A DNA stretch of 64,000 nucleotides, from NCBI GenBank assembly GCA_030272585.1, contig BSYQ01000001.1:124001-188000 (forward strand), in the 5' to 3' direction. Shown in pieces: positions 10,350-63,600 of the stretch. Source of the stretch: Bryopsis sp. KO-2023. Taxonomy: Eukaryota; Chlorophyta; Ulvophyceae; Bryopsidales; Bryopsidaceae. Every line of letters begins with the position of its first letter. Position 1 is the first letter of the stretch. The translations under genes were made by a program, and so were the position numbers. The notes beneath the pieces were generated by a model. That model had not been told where the DNA came from, did not search any database, and worked only from the letters and a program-made list of their open reading frames with translations.

Positions 10350-11705
10350 CTAGGGGTCCAAAGTGCTGGCGCTGAAAGCGTTAAATGTGGCAGATCCGGC
10401 GTCGCCACTGGCAGTTGTGGAACTTCCAACTTCTCCAACAGCCACGGTGGGACCGACAGCACCCTTAAGGGTGTTCTGGGTATTAGCACTTGCACCGTTA
10501 CCGTTCACAAGGAAGCCTGATCTGCTATCACCCTGGAAGGCACTCACGCCACCATTCCCTGTAGACCAGTGCATCACGTCAGCAACACTCGACATACATA
10601 ATTGGGTGAACCAGCTCCAAAGCAACGAAGAATGAGCCTTCAACTACCTGGGAAGAGAGTGGCTGCTCCATTAAGCCCAGTCTGTCCTGCTCCGGGGCCA
10701 GCACCGTTGACGAAAGCGTTCTGCGTTCCTTGGGTGGCGGCCGCACCGCCATCCAGCTTGGTTGAGAATGTGGATCCCGAACCTTGAGAGCCAGTCGACC
10801 CAGAAGCAATCTGAGTGACGGCATTACCACCGATGTTGGCGAAAGAAAGAGGGCCCTGACCAGCTGGGGGGACAACACAGAATCGTCACAACTCGAACGA
10901 AACATAATCAGCAGGTCACTAGTTGGGAAGTCATGGATATTTCACAGTGTTTTCACCAGATTTGTTCTTACACAATCGTGACGCCAATGGGTATAGATTT
11001 AGTCAGGAATGGTAGTGGTATGACTGACCTGGTACTCCAACAACTGGGGTTCCAGTGATAACCGGGGGGGTCACGACAGGGGTCACAGGGGTGACGACTG
11101 GGGTAACAACCGGGGTAACAACCGGGGTCACAACTGGGGTCGCAACTGGGGTCACAACTGGGGTCGCAACTGGGGTCACAACAGGAGCGGGCCTCTTGCA
11201 TCTGTTAAAAAAAACAGTCAGGGTTCACAACAAACAAACACCACGAGACTTTTGCTCACATCCGCTTCAGTGCCCAAACTTACGTTCCATCGGAGCAGTT
11301 CAAGCCGTCCTCGCAAATGTTCGCCAAGGCTCTGTTTGAGCAACAGCTCTTGCCCTCAGCACCGCAGTTTGGCTTGAAGCAGCTGCGCAAGGAAAGCAAG
11401 AAAAAAGTTATATCTGATGTGCAACCAATGGGTCTCATTCTTGCGGTAGCTACCAGCCTTCCTCACCCTCCAGGACTGTTCGCACTTGTCCCCAGGCACC
11501 TCAGGCCGGAATTGCAAGCGGTTTTTCGGTTCGTGCAGCACACCCAGTTGGGATCGCCACACTCTGCATCGAAAATACTGGCACTTAGATCAGGAGGCGG
11601 GACGTCAGCGTAGAGATCTGTTCACCCGCGGATCCTTGACTCACTTGCTGAGACGCAAGACACCCCAAGGGCCAGAAGAGCAACGACGGCGACAACCTTC
11701 ATCAT
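10350..11705 (-). CDS. secreted Cys-rich protein with VTP linker and Gly/Ser/Asn-rich tail (gene A)
   Basis: Six exons join in phase to 284 residues: 11645-11705, 11467-11563, 11284-11382, 11029-11201, 10648-10863 and 10350-10558. Residues 1-20 (MMKVVAVVALLALGVSCVSA) are a signal peptide filling exon 1. Exons 2 and 3 each encode one Cys-rich module of the form CG-x4/5-CC-x-NR-...-C-x2-GL-x-C, like a small disulfide knot. Exon 4 encodes about a dozen VVTP/VATP units. Exons 5 and 6 encode a Gly, Ser, Ala, Thr and Asn-rich region with GSGSTFSTKLDGG and NAFVNG, ending FNAFSASTLDP. The last two exons match those of the collagen-like gene at 57033-58216 in sequence, length and phase. No known enzyme domain. 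Probably extracellular matrix, wall or mucilage, the VTP linker being a likely O-glycosylation site (inference). Confidence 0.82.
11055..11190. repeat. 12-bp tandem repeats encoding VTP units
   Basis: Repeated GGGGT(C/A)(A/G)CAAC units on the plus strand, read on the minus strand as Val-(Val/Ala)-Thr-Pro codons in exon 4 of gene A. About eleven units are visible with small interruptions, so copy number may vary between alleles. Confidence 0.85.
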
Positions 11706-13431: not shown

Positions 13432-16400
13432 ATGGCGAGCGAAATGGACGAGAAAAAAGAAAGCTCGTTCGGATATGAATCCAAAGCGTACGAAGCGTTG
13501 GAGAGGGATTTCCAAGAGGTGCAGGAAAAGACGCGCGTAGCTTCTTATGTGCAGTTTTCTGAAAAGAGTTTTATGGTGGTGCAAACACATTTTTTTTCCA
13601 GTCACGTGCAGTCCTTTCACAGAAACAACTTGTGTAAATAAGAGTGTGTAAATATTTGGATATTGTTTTAAAAAATTATTTGTTTTTGTCGGGTCAAGGT
13701 GTTGCAAGAATTGCTTGGAGACAAGAGCTTGGAGCGGTTCCGGGTTGAATATGAAAAAATCCACAGAGCTTTGAAAAAGTCACATGGTGTGGAAATTTGC
13801 ATGGTGCATCGGTTTTCTCTTACTCTTTTCTCACAGTTTTAGAAAATAACAGCTATCAACCCCTTCTTTTCTTTTTCCCCGACACCCTCAATCATTGGAG
13901 TTCACAGCCAATCTATAGCCTGATTGTGATTACCAATTCTTGAAAAATCATCTTTTCTTGTTCTTTACAAAAAAGATAATAGCAATGGAGAGTATGGCCG
14001 GCGATGATAAATATTTAAACAGCTTGTGTGAAAGGTGAAAGCTTGCTGATAAGTGTTTTTTCTATCTCCCTAATTTGAAAAACAGACAATGAGAAGAGGC
14101 TGATCAAAAAGTGCCGTGAACTCAATGCGGAAATCGTGGCAAATGCTGCCAAAGTGCAAACTGCACTCAAGCTCAGCGAAGAAGATCAGAATACCATCGG
14201 ATCACTTAAAAAAGAAATCGAGAAAGCATGGAAAATGGTGGATGCCAGTCACGAAAAGGTATGACTAATTGAGACGATATATCAAAGAAAAAGAAACAGG
14301 AGCGTATTCGTGCAAATTATTCGCAAGGATTCCGTAGACACTCAAAACCATCTTTTCACAGCAGCGATTGCTCAATGAATTATAATTGGAAAATAAATCT
14401 AAAAAGAGAATTTTAATGAAAGCCTCATGACTACCGCTGTGTAGGAAGTATGTGAATATACCAAGCTCTCACTAGCTGGACACAATTCATCGCGTTTCGC
14501 CCTTTGATTCAATTTTTTTTTCCACTATTTAAAAAAAAAAGAGCTTATTCGCATGATGCTCAGTGTCACGCAATTCTTCTGCTAAAAAAATAGATGCATT
14601 TTCCCCAAGTGTGACATGAAGTCCATGTGGGTGATATGGGTCTTACAAGTATTGCATTTAAAAAGTTTTTTTTCATTTTTTTCCCAGGAAGCCAGAGCGA
14701 AGGAAACCATTCAGCAATTGAAGATGGAGATTTCGAATTTGACTCGGTTGGTGGAGCAAGGGGCTGGTCTGACTTTGGGCGAAGAGAGCACAGTGAATGA
14801 GCTTTTGAGGCAAAAAGAGGAATTGATGAAAGAAAGAGACATGCAAGTCGATCAAATCGTATCTCTACGCAATAATGTGAGCAACCCGTGTAGAAAGAAA
14901 TATCAAATGTGCTCTAGTCGCTTGGGATTTAATTGTGGTGGAAAAGAAAATGAGGTTTTTGTTAGGTGTTGCTAAGGGGGGAGGGGGGGTTCAAGGAATC
15001 TTCTTCCCTGCATCAAAGAGTGTTGTTCGACTCCTATATAAAAAAACCTCATTTTCTTTCTCTTTTTCTTTTTGGTAACATTTTCCATGAAATTCTTCAG
15101 GCTCTGGAATTGCAAGATAAATTGAGAGCTGCCGAACTCGATAAGCTCCAAATGGAGACCGAGGTTTCTCAGACGAAAGATCAAATTAGTGCAAAGAAAG
15201 CGGAGGCCGAAAGGGAAGCCAGAAAGAAAGAAAGAATGGAAAAAGAAATGAAGGAGTTGAAGCAATCGTTGGAAACAAGACAATTCGAACTGAAACAGAA
15301 GCAGGCTCAGGTTGGTGGAGCCCAGCAGAGACGCAGGATGATGATCTGAAGGAATTGAGACTGTTTCTCTACTTTCGAGTTTGGCAGTGAGGATATGTGT
15401 TGCGGAGTAATAATAATTTCTATTAGTAAAAGAACTTAAATAAGTATACAGATGCGGTTTTGGAACTTTGAAATCGTTTTCTTTTTTTTCCTTAATAGGT
15501 GGTGCAATGTGAGGAAACAGCTGCCCGATTGGAGCAAATGCTGCGAGATTCTCGTCAAGGGACTGACAAGCTCCAGAAAGAATACAACCAACTCAACGAA
15601 AAAGTTCAAAAATTGCACCATGATTTGGAGGAACAAATCCACACCAACACTCAGTTGCTGGCGGAAAATTCCCAAAAGCAAGTGGAGCTGAAGTCGAAGG
15701 AAGATGAGATAGGTCAGATCAAAAACGAAGCCTCAAGGATGACTAAGCTCAGGGAGCAGAGCACTAAAAAGCTGAAATCCTTGGAGGAGCAGAAATTCGA
15801 CGTCGAAAAGCAGAGGGATGATATGAGGTGAAAACATATTTGTCATGAAATTGTGACAATTCGATAGAGGGTGTGGAAAAATGCAATTCTTCCAGACCAC
15901 TCCTTTTTTTCCTCAAGTTTGGATCAGTATGGAGCGTGATTTCCAGTGAACATCCAGTTTCAATTCAATTTTTCGTTTTTTTTCATGCAGGTCAGAAATT
16001 GCTGCTATGGAAAGAGAGATTGAATTGTCCAAAAAGCAACTGGAATCCGAGCGGAAAAAGCAGGAAGAAATGATGAGGGAAAGGGACATTTTGAACAAAC
16101 TGAAAACGCAAGCCGAAAACTCAACCCAACAGCAAATCAACATCATCAAGATCAACGAAAACACGAAACGAAATTTGGAACAAGAAATCCAAGGCTACAA
16201 AGTGGAGGCTCAGAAGCAAATGAAATTGATTTATCAATTGGAAAAGGAAAGAGAGAAATATGGATCAGAAGCCAGCGATGCGACCAGCAAATATTTACAG
16301 GTGATGAAAACCACCATACTTGTGCTTCCCTGTTTTTCTAATTAACTTTTTTTTAAATCCAAAAAAAAGGCATTTTTAGATGGCTTTTTAAAATTGGGTT

Positions 16401-18781
16401 TTGCTGTGATCCAGGCGCTGGAAGAGGTCAAAATCCGTGAAATGACGATCGTCGATTTGCAAAAGAAAATCTCCGAAGGGGAAGCCAAACTGAAACAACA
16501 GCAAAACTTGTACGAGGCTGTCCGAGCGGATAGAAACCTGTACAGCAAAAACTTGATCGAGGCTCAGGACGAAATCCAAGAAATGAAAAGAAAATTCAAA
16601 ATCATGAGCCACCAGATCGAACAACTGAAGGAGGAAATCAGTGCGAAAGATCTGGCCCTGGTGAAAGAGCATTTCGACCACATGAAGGTGGAAAAGGAAA
16701 AAGAATCGCTCAGGTTGGAACTGAACAAGGCTAAACAGCAAATTGCCGAGGCTGAAACAGCAATCGCATCCCAGAAGGCCGAAATCGAGAAATTGAATCA
16801 CATCATCAATGAAGCCGATCAGGTGTGGAAAAATAAGGAAAAAAAAAGGCTGAACTATCGATCAAAATTTGTTAATTTCGAAAATATATAAACATTTTCA
16901 CCAACATCCTTGTTTTGTTTGAACCAGCCCATTTTCCGGATTGATCTCCTTTTTTGTGTGCTGGTTTTTTTAAAGAATTTTCAGATTTATTCTACGAATT
17001 GACCATTTTTGTGCTGTGTGAAGTCCAGGAACGAATTCGGCAAAAGAAAGAATACGACATTGTGGTCAATGAAAGGGACATTTTGGGGACCCAGCTCATT
17101 CGCCGAAACGACGAATTGGCTCTGCTCTACGAAAAGATCAAAATCCAGCAGAGCACCTTGGCCAAGGGCCAGATTCAGTACAGGGATCGACTGAACGAAA
17201 TCCGAGTCCTGAAAATCAAACTGAACGATCTCAAACGAGAGCTCCACATTCTGAAATGCAGCGTGGCCAATATCGACGTTCTCAAGAGAGAGGTTCGACA
17301 AACTACATCTGTGTTTTTTTTGTTTTTTTTTTTCTTTCGATGCTTTTTTTGAAATGGATTGGAAAGAAAAACGATGTGCTGACCTGCATGGTGTATTTTC
17401 TTATTTTTTTTGGTAGGTTCATCACTTGAGCAGAGAGCTTTTGCAAGAACGGACGAAAGTGAAAGCTTTGAGTGAGGAGCTGGAAAATCCACTGAACGTT
17501 CACAGATGGCGAAAGCTGGAGGGCAGCGATCCCAGCACTTACGAAATGATTCAAAAAATCCAAACGCTCCAAAAAAGGCTCATTTCGAAAACGGAAGAGG
17601 TCGTCGAAAAAGACTTGCTCATCCAGGTGTGAACCGCTGAGAAACCGATTGGGGTCGACAATACAGTCCCCCAAAGAAACAACTCACAGAAACAAATAGG
17701 CAAAAAACAACTGATGAGCAGTATTAAGCTGAATCGTGAACAGAAGAAGAAAAACTCAGGGATAGAATCAAAGCGAACAAAGAAGGGAACTGACCGAAAC
17801 AAACATGAATATCGAGCCTCAGCAAAGCCAACAATTCTTCCACTCTATCTACAGATAATTTGAGAATTCTAACCAAAAAATCATGTTGATTGATTTGGAA
17901 CGGGCACTGCAAAAACATCAGAAGATGCACATAAGATAAAAAATTCAACACCGCCACCAACAGTACATTGATTGGTGATGGGCAGCATTTCTTGCACAAG
18001 GAATGCTGTGGCTTGATTTTACCCGTTCCATTCTGAACGCCTGCCTGTTCTCTCCTGTCAGGAAAAAGAGAAACTCTACACTGAGTTGAAAAACATTCTG
18101 GCAAGACAACCAGGGCCAGAAGTTGCAGAGCAATTGAGCTTGTACAAGGTGACACCTCCCAACACGAATTCAATTAAGAAACATTCAATTCAATTAAAAT
18201 GAATGCTGTTCTTCTTCTTCGAACATCAATTTTTTTTTTCAGAACTTGGTCTCGTCACAATGTGATAAGATATTTTTGATGTTGAAACAATGAATTGAAG
18301 ATCCTGCTGAGTCGGATGGAAAAAAGTAAAAAGTAATGTACGCTCCACAGTTTTGTTTTAATTTTTATTCGGTAACTCTTTCAAGGGTTAGCACTTCTTG
18401 CCTCTGTTCCAGTTTTTAAATCTTTCAGTGCTTTCTTATTTTTCAACATAAAGGGAAGAAATCATATTGAAAAAAATTGTTTGGATTGTCTTAATGATTA
18501 TGGTAATTTCTGTCCTGCAGGCAACATTGAGACAAAAAACCAAGCAAATGAAAGCTATGGCCTCCGAGCTGAACATGTATGAGGCCCAAGTGAACGAATA
18601 CAAATACGAAATCAGCCGATTGATGAGGGAAATGAACGACCTCAAGAAACGCTATTTCGAGCAAAAACGAAAAGAACAGCTGGACAAAGAGCTGAAAGTC
18701 GATTCCATCAGGGCGGTTCCCCAAGACAGCCCCCAACCAAAATTCACAGGGGGTGGCTTCTCCTTAGCCACTCATGGATGA
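13432..18781 (+). CDS. CFAP58: cilia- and flagella-associated protein 58 (CCDC147)
   Basis: Twelve exons join in phase to 871 residues, about the length of the animal protein: 13432-13518, 13699-13786, 14086-14258, 14688-14876, 15101-15310, 15499-15827, 15991-16300, 16415-16822, 17029-17292, 17417-17626, 18062-18148, 18521-18781. The product is almost all coiled coil. Family-defining stretches are NEKRLIKKCRELNAEIV, KKEIEKAWKMVD, KQQQNLYEAVRADRNLYSKN, RRNDELALLYEKIKIQQS, NPLNVHRWRKLEGSDP, LQKRLISKTEEVVEKDLL and ILARQPGPEVAEQLSLY; the C-terminus keeps FTGGGF. CFAP58 is an axonemal/intraflagellar protein needed for sperm and motile flagella, so the organism makes motile cilia. The ATG is the first in frame and gives the expected acidic N-terminus. 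It converges with the kinesin gene. Confidence 0.96.
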
Positions 18782-29900: not shown

Positions 29901-32900
29901 GAGTCCAAACCCTCAGGGATGAACTCCAGGTTGTACGTGCCACTTCTAGCCGAGACCTGTGATGCCGTTCAAATCTTATGAGCTTCGAGGCAGGTCTTCA
30001 CAGAATGAGGTCCGCCTGTGAGCAGTGCGCTGATTCTTTATATTCACCTTCAAAGTGTCGAAAGATGCGTCCCCGAGGATGGTAGACACGCTGGTTTGAC
30101 CCTGGGCGACATTGTCCGGGCTGTTTATCGAAATAATTGTTTGGGCTTCTGGTAAACCTCCAGTGATGGTCTGGTTGTACGCGTCTTGAATCGACAGGTC
30201 TACGTTAATAATATCTCCGCTGTTGTACCCTTCAATGTGGTCTCCAGTGTGCAAGGCCAGATACGTCCCCCCTGTAGCAACCTGAGGCCCGTAGCCATTA
30301 TTTATCGCGCGGTTGTCAATCCATGCGTCGCATGGCATCACGTGCAGCAAAGCTGCTCTTTGGAGGTGGGTGAAATCGAGAACGTGGGCATCACAGAGAA
30401 ACAGAAGTCCCTCTTCTTCTTTGAAATGGACCGCCCCGCCGCCGCCACCATTCGCAACATTGTTTCCGATAGTCGAGTTGTCAACTCTCACAACACCGCA
30501 AGTCGCTGCTTCCTCACCACTAAACTCGCAGGTGTGCTCCACGAAGAGTCCCCCTATCGTCAAGTCAAAGAGATATGTTGTGGAGAATGACGGCTCTGCA
30601 TACCAGAAACGTATCAGTTCTCGTCAATTCAGCTTACCTCCATTCTTGGCAGTGTTATCCAAAATTTGATTGGATACGATGTTCACATCGCTATCGATTT
30701 GAGCGCATATCGCTCCTCCACCTTCGTAGCTACACTCCACGGACCTCATAAGGCGTGTTTGTTTCGAAGCTATCCAATTCGAATCCAGCAATGCCACATT
30801 GCCAGACAAGACGGAGTCACCGATATGTGTCAACCCATAAGCTTTCATCAAGGATATGGCACCACCAGAGAGGGCAATGTTGTCGATAAAGCGGGTGTTT
30901 GTCACATTGGAAGCGTCGCAAGTTTCGCATTGCCAGCCGCCACCATCGACGGCTTTGTTCTGACTTATTCTACTGTTAAAAATATTCGTTATCAAATCTT
31001 GACCAGAGAAAATGGCCCCTCCCGCTGTAGCCGTGTTTTTGGCCAGTGTGGAGCCGTAGATGTTGAGTGTGCCGCTCTTGTCATACGAAATCCCACCTCC
31101 CTGTTTTGCGAACAAATTACAAACAACAATGATCAGCAAACCAAGCAGGTCGACAAAGAGACGTGATTCTTTCACAAAAAGGTTGGCATTTTCGTGAATT
31201 CCACAGTTCAAGAGAATTCTCACCTTTGTAGCAGCAACATTTCTCCTGATTTGCATGTCATGGAGATCAACTTGGTCCCCCTCTAGTACTTTTATTCCAC
31301 CCCCGACACGCGAAAGAGCTTCGTTCCCAACGATAGAGCTCGACCGCAGTGTGACTGGCAAGTAAAACTCCACAAGAGATATTCCCCCTCCTTCAGAAGC
31401 CTTGTTGCCCTCCACTGTGCAATTAGTCATCTAAGAACAAAACAGAAGTGATTTCAAGTAAACCTCGGGCGAGCTTTTAACTTTGAACCAACTATCTTAG
31501 CCTTATCGAACTGGTAATGCGAGCAAGCATGTGGATTCAATGGCTGAGTTGTTTTTTCACAGAAGAAGTACTGTATCTGATCGCTCTATGAGCTCCATCG
31601 CGAGATTTGCTTACAAGCAACGAAAACCCTCTCAGGTTATCAATAGCGAACCCTCCACCAGATTCCGAGGCGCTGTTGTTTGCAAAGACTGCTTCATTCA
31701 ACTCCACAGAGCAAGAGGGGGTTTTGATGTACATTCCTCCACCATCAATGCTAGCTGCGTTCTCCAGGAAAGTCGAATCTGTGATGCGATTCAGGCATCC
31801 CCCTTCATCAACGACCAGCGCGCTGGATGAGGGCCCCGATGTTACAGGAGCGTGACTGCACAACAAACCAATTCCAGATCAATTCCACTGAGCTACTGAA
31901 AAAAGAGAGGAAAGCTAACATGAACAAAACAATTCATCAATTCTTACTTGCTGCTGTTGTTATTATTTTGGAAGAGGGAGTCTTTGACCTCGTAGAGCAG
32001 GCCACCTGGTGCAACATAGACGGCCGATCCAACCGATGCAGTGTTGCTGTCGAAAGTTATGTTGGAAAGGGTCACATTGGCTTGAGATTGGATGTATATG
32101 GCGGCACCATACTCCGCATCATTGTCAGAAAATGTCATCCTGGACAGAGTGACCCCCTCCCCCTCTGTCACAACGTTTGGGGTGTCGATGAGGATTGCTG
32201 AGTTCGTACAACCTTTGACATCGAATCCTTCCAGCCTAACCCCTGTGCTCCTGAGTTCACACAAAATAAATTGGATGAACAGTCAAACAAAGCTCAAAAT
32301 AATCAAATGTGTTTCCTGTAAATCAACATCATGAAAACAAGAGAAAAAGACACTTACTTCACGATAACTGCATGATTATCACCCGAGCATCCGATTGTGC
32401 CCATGGGGTCCGACTTCAGAGTTCGACCGACAGCTCTAGTATTTGCTGAAGCGGAGAAAGCCCTCATTGTAACGCCAATTGAGAGTTCTATGGGGGCATC
32501 AAGAAGTAGATCTCCATGGTCCACATCGATTGCCAGAATGTCCCCATCATACATGTCTGATAAGAGCCGGCGGAGTTCTGGCACTTGCTGAGGGTCTATC
32601 ACAGTGGGCGGCGCAACGGGAACGATCAACAAGTCCTATCATGAATCCAGAATTTCAACATCAGCGATAGCATCAGGAGAAGTTTGTCAAGGCTTGTGAG
32701 CAAGTATCGGAACTACCTGTTGGTGCAAAACGGCTATCCTCCCAGCATCAAGAGGAACCATTCCACCTCCTGTCGGGAATTGCTCTTTTGATCTGTAAAT
32801 TTCACCTTGGCCAGAACCGGAAGCGGGTCTCCATTCGAGGATATCCATCCCGAGATGTAAAGAAAACATATCACCTCCTTGTACCCACTCACTGGTTGCA

Positions 32901-57032: not shown

Positions 57033-58216
57033 CTACGGATCAATGGCAGAAGAATAGGCGTTGAAGCTGGACTGTCCAGATCCACCCTGCACTGCGACAC
57101 CGGCACCTCCTTTCACGGAGTTTTGCGCGAAATTGCCACCCGCAACACTCGTATCCTGACTGTGGACAGAGCCCTTAACGACACCTCCTGTTCCCGAAAA
57201 TCCTCCATTGGAGGCCCCGCTCGCAGCACTGAAGCCTCCTGCGAGACAAAACATTTGCTGAATACGGGTGCCTGCAGAAGTGGGTGATGTGTGTCCATCT
57301 GGCAACTGTAACTCTGGCACTGCCATGCCAAAATCACAAACCTGGGCTTGTCACTGAGGCTTTGGTTTGCGTGCCAAAACCACCAGCAGCACCTCCATTC
57401 ACGGCGAAAGCGTTGGTGCCACCGGCGACGTTGGCTGTGGAGAGGCCTCCATTGATCTTTGTTCCGAACGTCGATGCTGTGCCGAACGTCGATCCAGACC
57501 CGGAGCCGAAAACATTGTTGAAGCCGCCACCTGCTCCAGTTGCGTGTGTAATAACACCAACACCTAGCGAACAAGGCCGAACTTCAAAGTCTCAAAAGGA
57601 ACTGCAACAATGCAGCACAAAGCATTGCCTTCTCACAAAATTGAGATGACCACAGTTGGAAAAATTACCTCCGTGTGTTTTCCCACCAGGAATTCCTGTG
57701 CCAGGGGGCCCGGGAGGTCCAGGAGGACCACCGGGAGTCCCAGGGGGTCCAGGAGGTCCTGGTTGCCCGACACCAGGAGGTCCCTTTGGTCCTGTTGGCC
57801 CTTTCGGCCCTCTCGGCCCTTTTGGTCCTTTTGGCCCAGGTTTCCCCCGATTCCCCTTCGGTCCAGGTTTGCCACGCGGTCCAGGAGAGGAAGACTTCTT
57901 TTTCTTTTTAACAGTGTGGACTGCAACACGGACAAATCATAAATTTCAAACAAAGAAGCTCCTCGGGATGCATGAGCTGATCGCAATTGGTATAAGCCAA
58001 AAACAACGGACGAGAACGAACGACGTGCGTCGGTGGGAATCCTCAGCAAGAGGTTGTGACTGCATGTTGAGCTTAGGCTTGCAATTGCAACTAGCATGGA
58101 TCAAAAACAGACTATGTAAAAAGTGACACACGGGCGCCACACTCACGATAGCGGGCGTCGATCACAGTCGCCGCCAGAAGCAGCAGCAAAAGGGCAAAAC
58201 TTATTCTGCGAGACAT
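57033..58216 (-). CDS. secreted collagen-like protein with Gly/Ser/Asn-rich tail (gene B)
   Basis: Four exons join in phase to 249 residues: 58147-58216, 57669-57920, 57342-57563, 57033-57238. Exon 1 encodes a signal peptide ([21 protein letters not shown]). Exon 2 starts with a basic KKKKKSSS segment and then runs for more than twenty Gly-X-Y triplets rich in Pro and Lys ([36 protein letters not shown]), a collagen triple-helix segment, with one break near GVGQ. Exons 3 and 4 encode a Gly, Ala, Ser, Thr, Asn-rich domain with [14 protein letters not shown] and NAFAVNGG, ending [10 protein letters not shown]. This tail is homologous to that of gene A at 10350-11705. There are no fibrillar-collagen propeptides or Cys-rich NC1 domain. 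A secreted structural or matrix component is inferred. Confidence 0.88.
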
Positions 58217-60695: not shown

Positions 60696-63600
60696 TTAGC
60701 TATTCAGGAGGCTCTGTGCCAAATGCCCTGGAGTGTGCAATTCTTTTGCGTGCTCCTCCCCTTCAGGATGAGAGCACATATCACCAAGTTCTGGGTCATC
60801 CAGTCCAAAATGTGGAATCGAAACTTTCCAATGGCAGAAATCGTTGAACTCTTCCCGGAGAGGTGGGCCTTGTCTGTTGGATTTCACAGGAGGAAAGACT
60901 TCATCCACCAATTCGTTGATACCTACAGACAGACACATTATGTGAATTGGCATGATCAAAGAGAAAAACACAATATTTTTGTCAGGATGGCGCACAGGGT
61001 CCTTTGGCTTGACATGCTAGCAGAACACGAAATAAGATATAATCCCATGTAATAATATTCATGACGATGTCGTGAAACTTTTCCGCTGGTTACCTTGGAG
61101 GGACGACCATGTGGATGTTTGAATTGAGCTCAGGGATCCCCTGATAATTTGCCCCTTGGAATTGATGGTGAAAATCCGGCTGGGAGGCACACCAGCCTTC
61201 TCATAACTTAAAACATCTGTGCCCCTGTTCCCAAAGCCCGCATAAAACGGATTCCAGTCGTCAGGAAACAATATCCTGATATCCTGCAAAATCAAAACTC
61301 CCAACTAAAATTTGAAGCCGATGCTTTTCTATTTCTGTGCCAAATTCGGATATCGTCAGCAAAGGATAAATAACAGGGTGGCTCTCACTCGAAAATGAAT
61401 GTACAAAAAGAGGTGTGTCTCAACAGCATCCTTTTTTTTATCATGTCCAGGAACATGTCCACTTTAGATTAAAAAAAATACTTGATGGATTAAAAATTAT
61501 GTATAAAAGTCTCTTCACTCGGTTTCAGCCAATGGTGGACAATCCCTGATGTCTGACCTGTAGACATCCGATTTTGAAATCGTGTGGCCTCCTGAGAATC
61601 ATTTCTCTGTAGAGTGAGGGCAACAGGCCATGCGGGGAAATTATTACTGGTCCTAATGGCATCTTGTGTTCTCCTTGCTCCAAGCTATGGAGGAAATCCC
61701 TCGTGACGTTTGCTTGTGCAATAGCCCTCGAACTCAAGAACATTATCTGAAAAGAAAAAAAAACAAACATCGCTCCATTTCTGAGATTGGGGGAGGAGGA
61801 GGGTCAAACTTACCACCTGATAACCAGTCCGGATGACTTATTTGCAAAGAGAAACTCTGCACAGATGAACACTGTAGAATCAATGGCCAGTATCTGCATA
61901 TCCACCCCCCAAAAAAACAGAAACAGACCTCGTATCCATTTGCAGTGATGTCTGAGAAAAGGTGGGCTACTCCAGAATGAGTCCAATCCACTCCAATTGG
62001 TGGCAGCAGATGGCCGAGCAGATCTGACCTAGTCACAGTCCCATCGATGTCCGAAATAACCAGCCGTGACATCCAGTTGATCATATAAATATACGCTTGG
62101 ATCCTGATATTACTCCCGATGTGGAATTCTATAACATTCCGGCCATTCTTGAGATTCAAGACCCCCAACTGGTCCGATGTGGGGTTCAATGTTTTCTTGG
62201 TCACCACCCGATGTTTCTTTCGGCTTGATTTGTATCGCAGGTTGGATGGTGGGTGAGTCATGAAGGGGTCATTCGGCTCTGGGGCGTTTCCAAACCTATC
62301 TGGGTCGGTTGGCGAAGGGGGGATTTCTGTGTCGATTGGGGACAAGTCCCCTGACTTATTAACTGGCCGGCCTCGCCATGAGCCAAAAGGCCAGAGCCTC
62401 CATCCACCCGACACCTGAAATTCGCAACCAACGAACCATGAAAATCATTCACCAACTCATTATGGAGAGGAGCTGCAAGAAAGGGGGCCTTGAGAGGCAA
62501 AAGCTATAGATATTTTCAAAAACTTTCTCTGGGACAGTGCACAGCCTCCATTTGATATTGTGGCAAAAATTAGAAGGGACAAAAAAAGAAACAAATATGG
62601 ATAGATGGGATGCAGAGAAAGAGGGCCAGGGGGCTTTTTTCAGTCACAGGAAACAAGAAAATGGGGTTGTATTTCTATTTTCTTGGTCCCGTCGGGGGTG
62701 ACTGGATGTTTTTGCTTCCTTTTTTTCGATTGGAGTACAAAACACCATAGCCATGACTGGAATGCCTCACCTTCCGGGCTAGTGGGCTGCCCTTGCTGAT
62801 AGGGCTACCTCCGACTGAATATCTGGACCCATCTTGAATCAGACTATCCCAATTCCCCCCAAATGCAAGCATGCCAAGCACCATCGGAGCAGCTGCATTC
62901 CAAGGATACAACGTCCCGCCAATTCGACACACTAGGTCCGGAGATTTGCAAAGAGTCAGTCCACACAGAGCAAATTGATCCTGCGCAGACCGGAAAGGAC
63001 AAAATCAAGCTGCACTCCCAGTAGCTCTATCAAAAAAACAATCGATAATATGAGTTTCCCTTTCTTTTTGCTCCCCTTGAGGCATTCGGAGATGGTTTTG
63101 CATATTCTTTTCAAAACTACTTTACGCGAAAATTTTCTGGCAAGATGCAGGAAATTGACAGGAAATCTCTCTATATATAAATTTGAGACAGACAGGCAAT
63201 GGAAGCAAGAGAGTATTTTTTTGGTGCAACAAAAAAGGCACAAAAGAAAAACAATACGGCCGAACCAAGTGTCTTTTTACTTTGTGTATCATGTTCTCTT
63301 CAAAGGCAGCCTGAGCTTCAGCGGGCAGCATATCCCGCCTCAGCAAATGTCCACATAGAGACAACTGAAATTCCCTTAAACCCTCCAACCCCTCCATCCT
63401 CTGCTCCGCTGCTGAAGTGGGGGATGCAAACCCAGTCGTGGGTTGATCGCTATCCCCCAAATATCCATCACTTGGAGCAGCATCCACTTCTCCCGGCAAT
63501 TTCAATGCCAGCCGTCTTTTTGTGCTGCTATCTCCGTCCTCTGTCCCTATGTCTACTGGGGCAGAATGGGTCCTGGAAACATGATGATTAGGCTCACATT

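Follow-up and report, generated by a model that had tools for sequence, protein, structure and literature searches.

One conserved C-terminal tail on proline-rich and collagen-like rods in an apparently secreted protein family of the green alga Bryopsis

The stretch of DNA analysed here (the window) comprises 64,000 nucleotides of contig BSYQ01000001.1 of Bryopsis sp. KO-2023 (assembly GCA_030272585.1, positions 124,001 to 188,000 of the forward strand). It carries two genes, designated A and B, with a proline-rich middle in A and a collagen-like middle in B, and the last two exons of these genes resemble each other. An earlier note on the window had proposed that these exons represent a mobile C-terminal module, attached by exon shuffling to different secreted N-terminal parts. 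The locus therefore raises the question of whether the likeness of the two tails is genuine, what kind of genes carry such a tail, and which part of these genes, if any, is exchangeable. To address this, both genes were modelled (Table 1). The exon borders of modelled genes were placed according to splice-site letters, uninterrupted reading frames and consistency among paralogues. In both A and B, GT/AG is found at every internal border and the spliced frame contains a single stop, which is terminal. The spliced models bear out the lengths that had been given for the penultimate and last exons of the two genes, the entry of all four exons in phase 1, the shared motifs and the C-termini. The two N-terminal halves had also been described as completely different. 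This holds for the middles of the proteins but not for the first exon, which in both genes is signal-like and ends in phase 1.

Table 1. Positions in the window of genes A and B and of their exons.
Feature	Position	Strand	Description
Gene A (proline-rich member)	10350-11705	-	6 exons of 61, 97, 99, 173, 216 and 209 nt; 285 codons including stop
Gene A exon 1	11645..11705	-	signal-peptide-like stretch; phase-1 end
Gene A exon 2	11467..11563	-	cysteine-rich unit 1 (CG..CC...C...LxC); phases 1 to 2
Gene A exon 3	11284..11382	-	cysteine-rich unit 2; phases 2 to 2
Gene A exon 4	11029..11201	-	proline-rich rod (PVVTPVAT repeats); phases 2 to 1
Gene A exon 5	10648..10863	-	216 nt; shared tail, first half; symmetric 1-1
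Gene A exon 6	10350..10558	-	209 nt; shared tail, second half; ends FNAFSASTLDP-stop
Gene B (collagen-like member)	57033-58216	-	4 exons of 70, 252, 222 and 206 nt; 250 codons including stop
Gene B exon 1	58147..58216	-	70 nt; start codon and signal-peptide-like stretch; phase-1 end; donor GTGAGT
Gene B exon 2	57669..57920	-	252 nt; lysine-rich head (KKKKK) and collagen-like rod; symmetric 1-1
Gene B exon 3	57342..57563	-	222 nt; shared tail, first half (GSGSTF..FGTK..GG..NAF.VNG..SPG); symmetric 1-1
Gene B exon 4	57033..57238	-	206 nt; shared tail, second half; ends [14 protein letters not shown]

The tail was searched for in the genome of the same alga (91,088,769 bases in 28 contigs) using eight member exons, among them exons of A, B, L014, L018, L041 and L043, together with one profile consensus. 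At least 21 genes, apparently secreted, were found to carry it, namely A, B, L010, L011, L012, L013–L015, L016, L017, L018, L034–L037, L038–L040, L041, L043 and L077 (L057 and L064 are duplicate labels of L041, and L076 of L043). Nineteen of these encode proline-rich rods and two, B and L041 (contig C10), collagen rods. As had been predicted from A and B, the search thus yielded more proteins, secreted as judged by pattern, that differ in their N-termini and have DP at the end of the tail. The consensus search alone detected 20 of the 21 genes, L077 having come from another search, and also matched two weak places outside the 21, at C10:904572 (E = 0.30) and at C15:1450043 (E = 1.9, with a stop). 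The count is a lower bound, as only the best candidates were scored and as these two weak places lie beyond it. Another candidate, L075 (C1:5.50 Mb, E = 0.125), was rejected as a member; it sits inside a long transporter-like open frame. Two pairs of close copies were observed among the carriers. L010 (C1:242 kb) and L011 (C14:1.647 Mb) show 91% identity over 1.9 kb including introns, which points to a recent duplication, and L036 and L037 show 98% identity over 2.0 kb in opposite orientation.

To assess the likeness of the tails, they were compared against shuffled sequences. Compared over the whole tail, A and B scored 151; the 2000 shuffles averaged 83.4 (s.d. 9.8), and none of them scored as high. 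Taken singly, the two tail exons gave weaker, marginal results (1 of 2000 shuffles each), and a single-comparison BLASTP of the two tails returned E = 0.001. Eighteen tests used profiles from which the clade under test had been left out. In 17 of them the real score was not reached by any of 2000 composition-matched shuffles, and in the remaining one, that of the last exon of L043, it was reached by one of 2000. Margins were wide outside the clade of L043 and L077; within it, the real scores were 16.8 and 14.7, and the best shuffles reached 14.5 and 14.8, respectively. Within gene B, the last exon was matched by that of L018 at E = 4e-5 and gave 33.0 bits when itself left out of the profile (best shuffle 8.4). 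The first tail exon of B is weakly conserved, and as a lone genome query it matched only itself. The family consensus search matched it at E = 0.019, and its score against the first tail exon of L041 was reached by 2 of 2000 shuffles. With 15.6 bits when left out, it is the weakest of the first tail exons, yet it passes (best shuffle 6.3). The leave-clade-out scores and the A–B shuffle results together indicate that the tail is not generic Gly/Ser low complexity, an objection that the earlier note had itself anticipated.

The position and phase of the introns were then compared between the genes. The border between rod and tail is a phase-1 acceptor in 19 of the 21 genes (read by eye in L013–L017); L043 and L077 lack an intron at this border and carry the rod and the first part of the tail in one frame. 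The rod-side donor matching the tail acceptor was read in six genes (A, B, L012, L017, L018 and L041). A phase-1 intron also separates the two tail exons in 20 of the 21, the tail exons of L012 being fused into one (C4:770.6-771.0 kb). The other end of the gene was read by eye in eight cases (A, B, L012, L014, L034, L035, L036 and L041), and in each of them the signal exon is followed by a phase-1 donor. A signal-like start was present in each of the 18 genes with the 5' end in the fetched stretch, while L040, L043 and L077 start outside it. The signal pattern is loose, also fitting 105 of the 2186 ATGs in the window, and weight was therefore placed on position and on the phase-1 donor behind the signal stretch. 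With phase 1 at the end of the signal exon and again at the start of the tail, the whole middle forms a symmetric block which is exchangeable in frame. In gene A this 1-1 block is made up of two cysteine units (1-2 and 2-2) and a proline rod (2-1), in gene B of one 1-1 exon, and in L041 of two exons, one for the lysine stretch (1-0) and one for the collagen rod (0-1). All 21 tail carriers look like one gene lineage, with A and B looking like divergent members of a single multigene family composed of signal exon, middle and tail.

The middle is the variable part of these genes. A pattern scan detected a cysteine unit, CG..CC...C...C, in 14 of the 20 genes with the middle in view, those without it being B, L041, L013–L015 and L017; on inspection by eye, off-frame matches to the pattern were discarded in L013–L015, L018, L038, L039 and L057. 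The join between the cysteine unit and the rod is in phase 2 in all eight genes in which it was read (A, L012, L018, L034, L035, L036, L038 and L077). The proline rods of the 19 genes are of several types, with (TP)n in L034–L037, SPPTP in L038–L040, SPPPM in L018, PAPV in L013–L015, and PVVT, PVPAT, PPATPT, SPTPG and similar repeats also being found. The rod of L016 is short, and that of L017 is accompanied by a lysine-rich stretch. Rods were found to vary fast even between close paralogues.

The tail itself comprises approximately 140 residues, is rich in Gly, Ser, Thr and Ala and is usually encoded by two exons. Across 31 representative tail exons (2169 residues) it contains 20% Gly, 14.5% Ser, 14.2% Thr and 12.3% Ala, with no Cys, Trp or Met. 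A lysine motif, [FIL][TSG][TSQ]K, is present in all 15 representative first tail exons (the near-copies L011, L013, L015, L035, L037 and L039 were left out). The best conserved positions of the second tail exon are its last two residues and one invariant Gly, and the C-terminus is DP in 19 of the 21 genes, EP in L037 and NH in L017. An alignment with MAFFT had placed last exons on first exons, hinting that the two tail exons are internal duplicates; this was rejected, with an hhalign probability of 2.1%.

Database searches detected no Pfam family in spliced A, spliced B or two representative tails and no NCBIfam family among three tails scanned. No PDB profile match to the tail was significant, the best (E = 0.18 and 0.06) being to unrelated proteins. 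Phage and IMG/VR searches with the tail detected no relatives, and the best match in a search of PHROGs had an E value of 0.32. The earlier note had put forward a candidate undescribed family of matrix proteins; the tail does prove to be a conserved module, with no Pfam or NCBIfam family and no significant PDB match in these scans. No description of the tail family, or of a tail found on both proline-rich and collagen rods, was found among the top-ranked results of the literature searches; the Bryopsis genome paper (doi 10.1111/tpj.16764) may mention it.

The two collagen members were given particular attention. The rod in exon 2 of gene B has 13 unbroken Gly-X-Y triplets, the last being GVG, and beyond these more triplets with breaks. 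Spliced gene B had no match in Pfam, including to collagen PF01391, and its exon is absent from the PF01391 matches listed (the best 150 of 216 candidates scored); an animal collagen C-terminal domain was also not detected in it by Pfam. The collagen exon of L041 (C10:172342-172521) is full of GTPGTPG repeats and, together with its neighbours, lies above the PF01391 cut-off. B and L041 have a common head, with a signal, an A-D-x-R end, a phase-1 border and a lysine run. The two heads gave a score of 71 against a shuffle mean of 21.3 and a maximum of 41 in 2000 shuffles, a contrast which is inflated by the loss of the hydrophobic-then-lysine block order on shuffling, and BLASTP of head and rod together gave E = 0.007. 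With a collagen paralogue that has a similar head, B does not stand alone as a chimera. The tail tree neither grouped nor separated B and L041 (AU p = 0.40 for forced grouping) and, being neutral on this point, is compatible with one or two collagen events.

The surroundings of other collagen-like sequences in the genome were inspected for the tail. The PF01391 matches form at least 32 region groups; among the 20 regions fetched from these, 19 were without it, and the exception, L057, is the family member L041. Large collagen-like frames on contigs C13, C7, C3, C11, C8 and C6 had no tail within the stretches fetched. The proposal of a tail made mobile by exon shuffling can thus be retained in part. 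The exon phases are those expected of a shuffled module and suit exchange, but the 21 carriers look like one lineage and the tail was found on no unrelated gene in the 20 collagen-match regions. With L041 as the only carrier there, a transfer of the tail to foreign genes is not in evidence. The ends of these genes (signal exon and tail) are fixed, and it is the middle that varies and could be exchanged, as opposed to a tail spreading over unrelated genes. Two further collagen-like loci were observed. L058 (C3:3425500-3430500) has a collagen exon closely like that of L041 (GRNxxPGRDGxPGPVGPEGPPGS.GTPG) with no tail within 5 kb; it was left uncounted and is perhaps a decayed copy. In L047 (C4:5512500-5518500), an open frame of 607 residues contains long runs of GSV/GST triplets; it scores as collagen, although there is hardly any proline in the printed parts.

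The account that is considered probable as a whole is one of at least 21 apparently secreted rod proteins of a siphonous green alga, acting as structural glycoproteins of the wall or matrix, in which a middle of cysteine units and proline rod was replaced, once or more, by a lysine and collagen middle. In the general plan, a signal-like exon is followed by a middle, mostly of one or two cysteine-rich exons and a proline-rich rod, and then by the cysteine-free tail, with B and L041 as a variant in which the middle consists of a lysine-rich head and a collagen-like rod. The rod would serve as a stiff, extended spacer, probably hydroxylated and glycosylated, and the tail as a common assembly or anchoring domain which could allow different rods to join the same material. 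The genes would have arisen by duplication, and the symmetric 1-1 middle could have been swapped without a break of frame. A more elaborate form of this account appears rather improbable. It supposes a cassette system with two fixed phase-1 sockets, the signal exon and the tail, between which rods are swapped, the tail being an assembly domain, perhaps trimerising, for both proline-helix rods and true collagen triple-helix rods in one wall material.

It is also possible, if doubtful, that no exon exchange took place, the 21 genes having diverged by duplication and the collagen of B having grown in place from Gly/Pro-rich rod repeats with loss of the cysteine exons. Such growth is consistent with the rapid divergence of rods between close paralogues, with the rod of L043, which already has Pro-Gly every few residues, and with the abundance of GTPGTPG repeats in the L041 collagen. 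L017, with its lysine-rich stretch and proline rod, could be an intermediate, and the tail tree demands no import. However, the lysine-rich head of B and L041 stands where the cysteine exons would be, and the phase-2 intron at the join of cysteine unit and rod, as read in eight genes, is absent in both; each of these is easier to understand as the replacement of a block. Replacement of the middle through exon exchange is the explanation that fits best.

The composition and architecture of the family proteins suggest their placement in the wall or outer matrix. The same features could instead belong to a secreted glue, that is, to adhesins of a wound plug, holdfast or mucilage and not to a permanent wall structure, with the tail as the sticky part. 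This is regarded as unlikely, as the rods are extensin-like and arabinogalactan-like and such rods are typical of walls. The cysteine-free, Gly/Ser/Thr-rich tail with its constant lysine motif would nevertheless agree with it, and long rods with small cysteine-rich heads would suit adhesives. Wound recovery, for which Bryopsis is known, would also be in keeping with a glue. A work cited in PMC12509668 has the words "highly regenerative" in its title.

A still less likely function for the tail would be that of a sorting or processing signal, with its conserved end (often SFSxDP-stop) serving as the recognition site of a receptor or protease, after which the tail would be removed. The conservation of the last two residues and of the invariant Gly in the second tail exon, along with the prevalence of DP, is what such a signal would predict. 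However, conservation extends over some 140 residues and the lysine motif lies far from the end, whereas a signal needs much less, and the ends of L017 and L037 deviate. That A and B are alike by chance, through Gly/Ser-rich low complexity, has a negligible probability, for although the composition of the tail and the single-exon scores, each matched by one shuffle, would allow it, the whole-tail comparison, the leave-clade-out tests and the nearly identical exon plan of 21 genes all argue against it.

As a kind, the family resembles what is already known from the hydroxyproline-rich glycoprotein (HRGP) walls and pherophorins of volvocine algae and from the collagen genes of Ulva; the tail and its sharing across rod types are the features not found described in the literature searched. 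Pherophorins are HRGPs of the Volvox extracellular matrix, according to an excerpt of PMC10762512. Like the pherophorins and other volvocine hydroxyproline-rich glycoproteins, the present genes are a multigene family of a green alga with an inferred matrix role, and a proline-rich rod is flanked by non-repetitive parts, an arrangement (cysteine unit, rod, tail) found in 14 of the 20 genes with the middle in view, with secretion judged by pattern. They differ from pherophorins in that the tail is free of cysteine. As no Pfam family was detected in spliced A, spliced B and two tails, these are without the pherophorin domain, which we take to be Pfam PF12499, and four queries with the cysteine unit remained below every cut-off. 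The signal-like start (by pattern) and the repeats of the SP, TP, AP or SPPP type, B and L041 excepted, are features in common with extensins and arabinogalactan proteins, from which the family is set apart by its conserved 140-residue tail and mostly also by a cysteine-rich head.

For the collagen members, a comparison can be made with animal collagens and exon-shuffled matrix proteins, in which exons of symmetric 1-1 phase occur and the collagen rod adjoins a C-terminal part that is not collagen. Gene B, with its collagen-like rod, shows a comparable arrangement but differs in that Pfam detected no collagen C-terminal domain in it and in that its tail is without a significant PDB match. Collagen-like genes are likewise present in the genomes of related green seaweeds of the Ulvophyceae, with four in U. 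compressa and 28 reported for U. mutabilis (PMC9266709, in excerpt). In B and L041 the collagen rod is joined to a tail otherwise found on proline-rich rods, which may set them apart from the Ulva collagens. A single conserved tail thus carries both proline-rich and collagen rods in a giant-celled green alga. To our knowledge, the proline-rich-rod wall proteins and the collagens of algae are usually discussed apart, and no description of Bryopsis wall proteins was found in the literature searched. If the tail is an assembly domain, it would provide a single handle by which this material could be isolated or labelled and the way in which collagen-like rods came into use outside animals could be studied.

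Some other genes were noticed during the analysis. The genome gave 107 chlorophyll-binding matches. One light-harvesting exon was closest to 6igz_7, Lhca-h (E = 9e-112), with 160 of 165 residues identical as counted on the alignment; 6IGZ_7 is the Lhca-h of Bryopsis corticulans, as given in an excerpt of PMC9931709. For one LHCII exon, the first single-domain matches were 9k7v Lhcb1 and the siphonaxanthin chain Bry-Lhcb1. These two exons point to antenna proteins like those of Bryopsis. Within the window, a eukaryotic gene with polymorphic membrane protein repeats of the Chlamydia type (Chlam_PMP, E = 5e-8) is located at 30624-31430 (-), and a flagellar gene with the central coiled coil of CFAP58 (E = 3e-48) at 16346-16891 (+). 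An exon encoding a Lipin LNS2 domain (E = 7e-31) lies at 61743-62444 (-).
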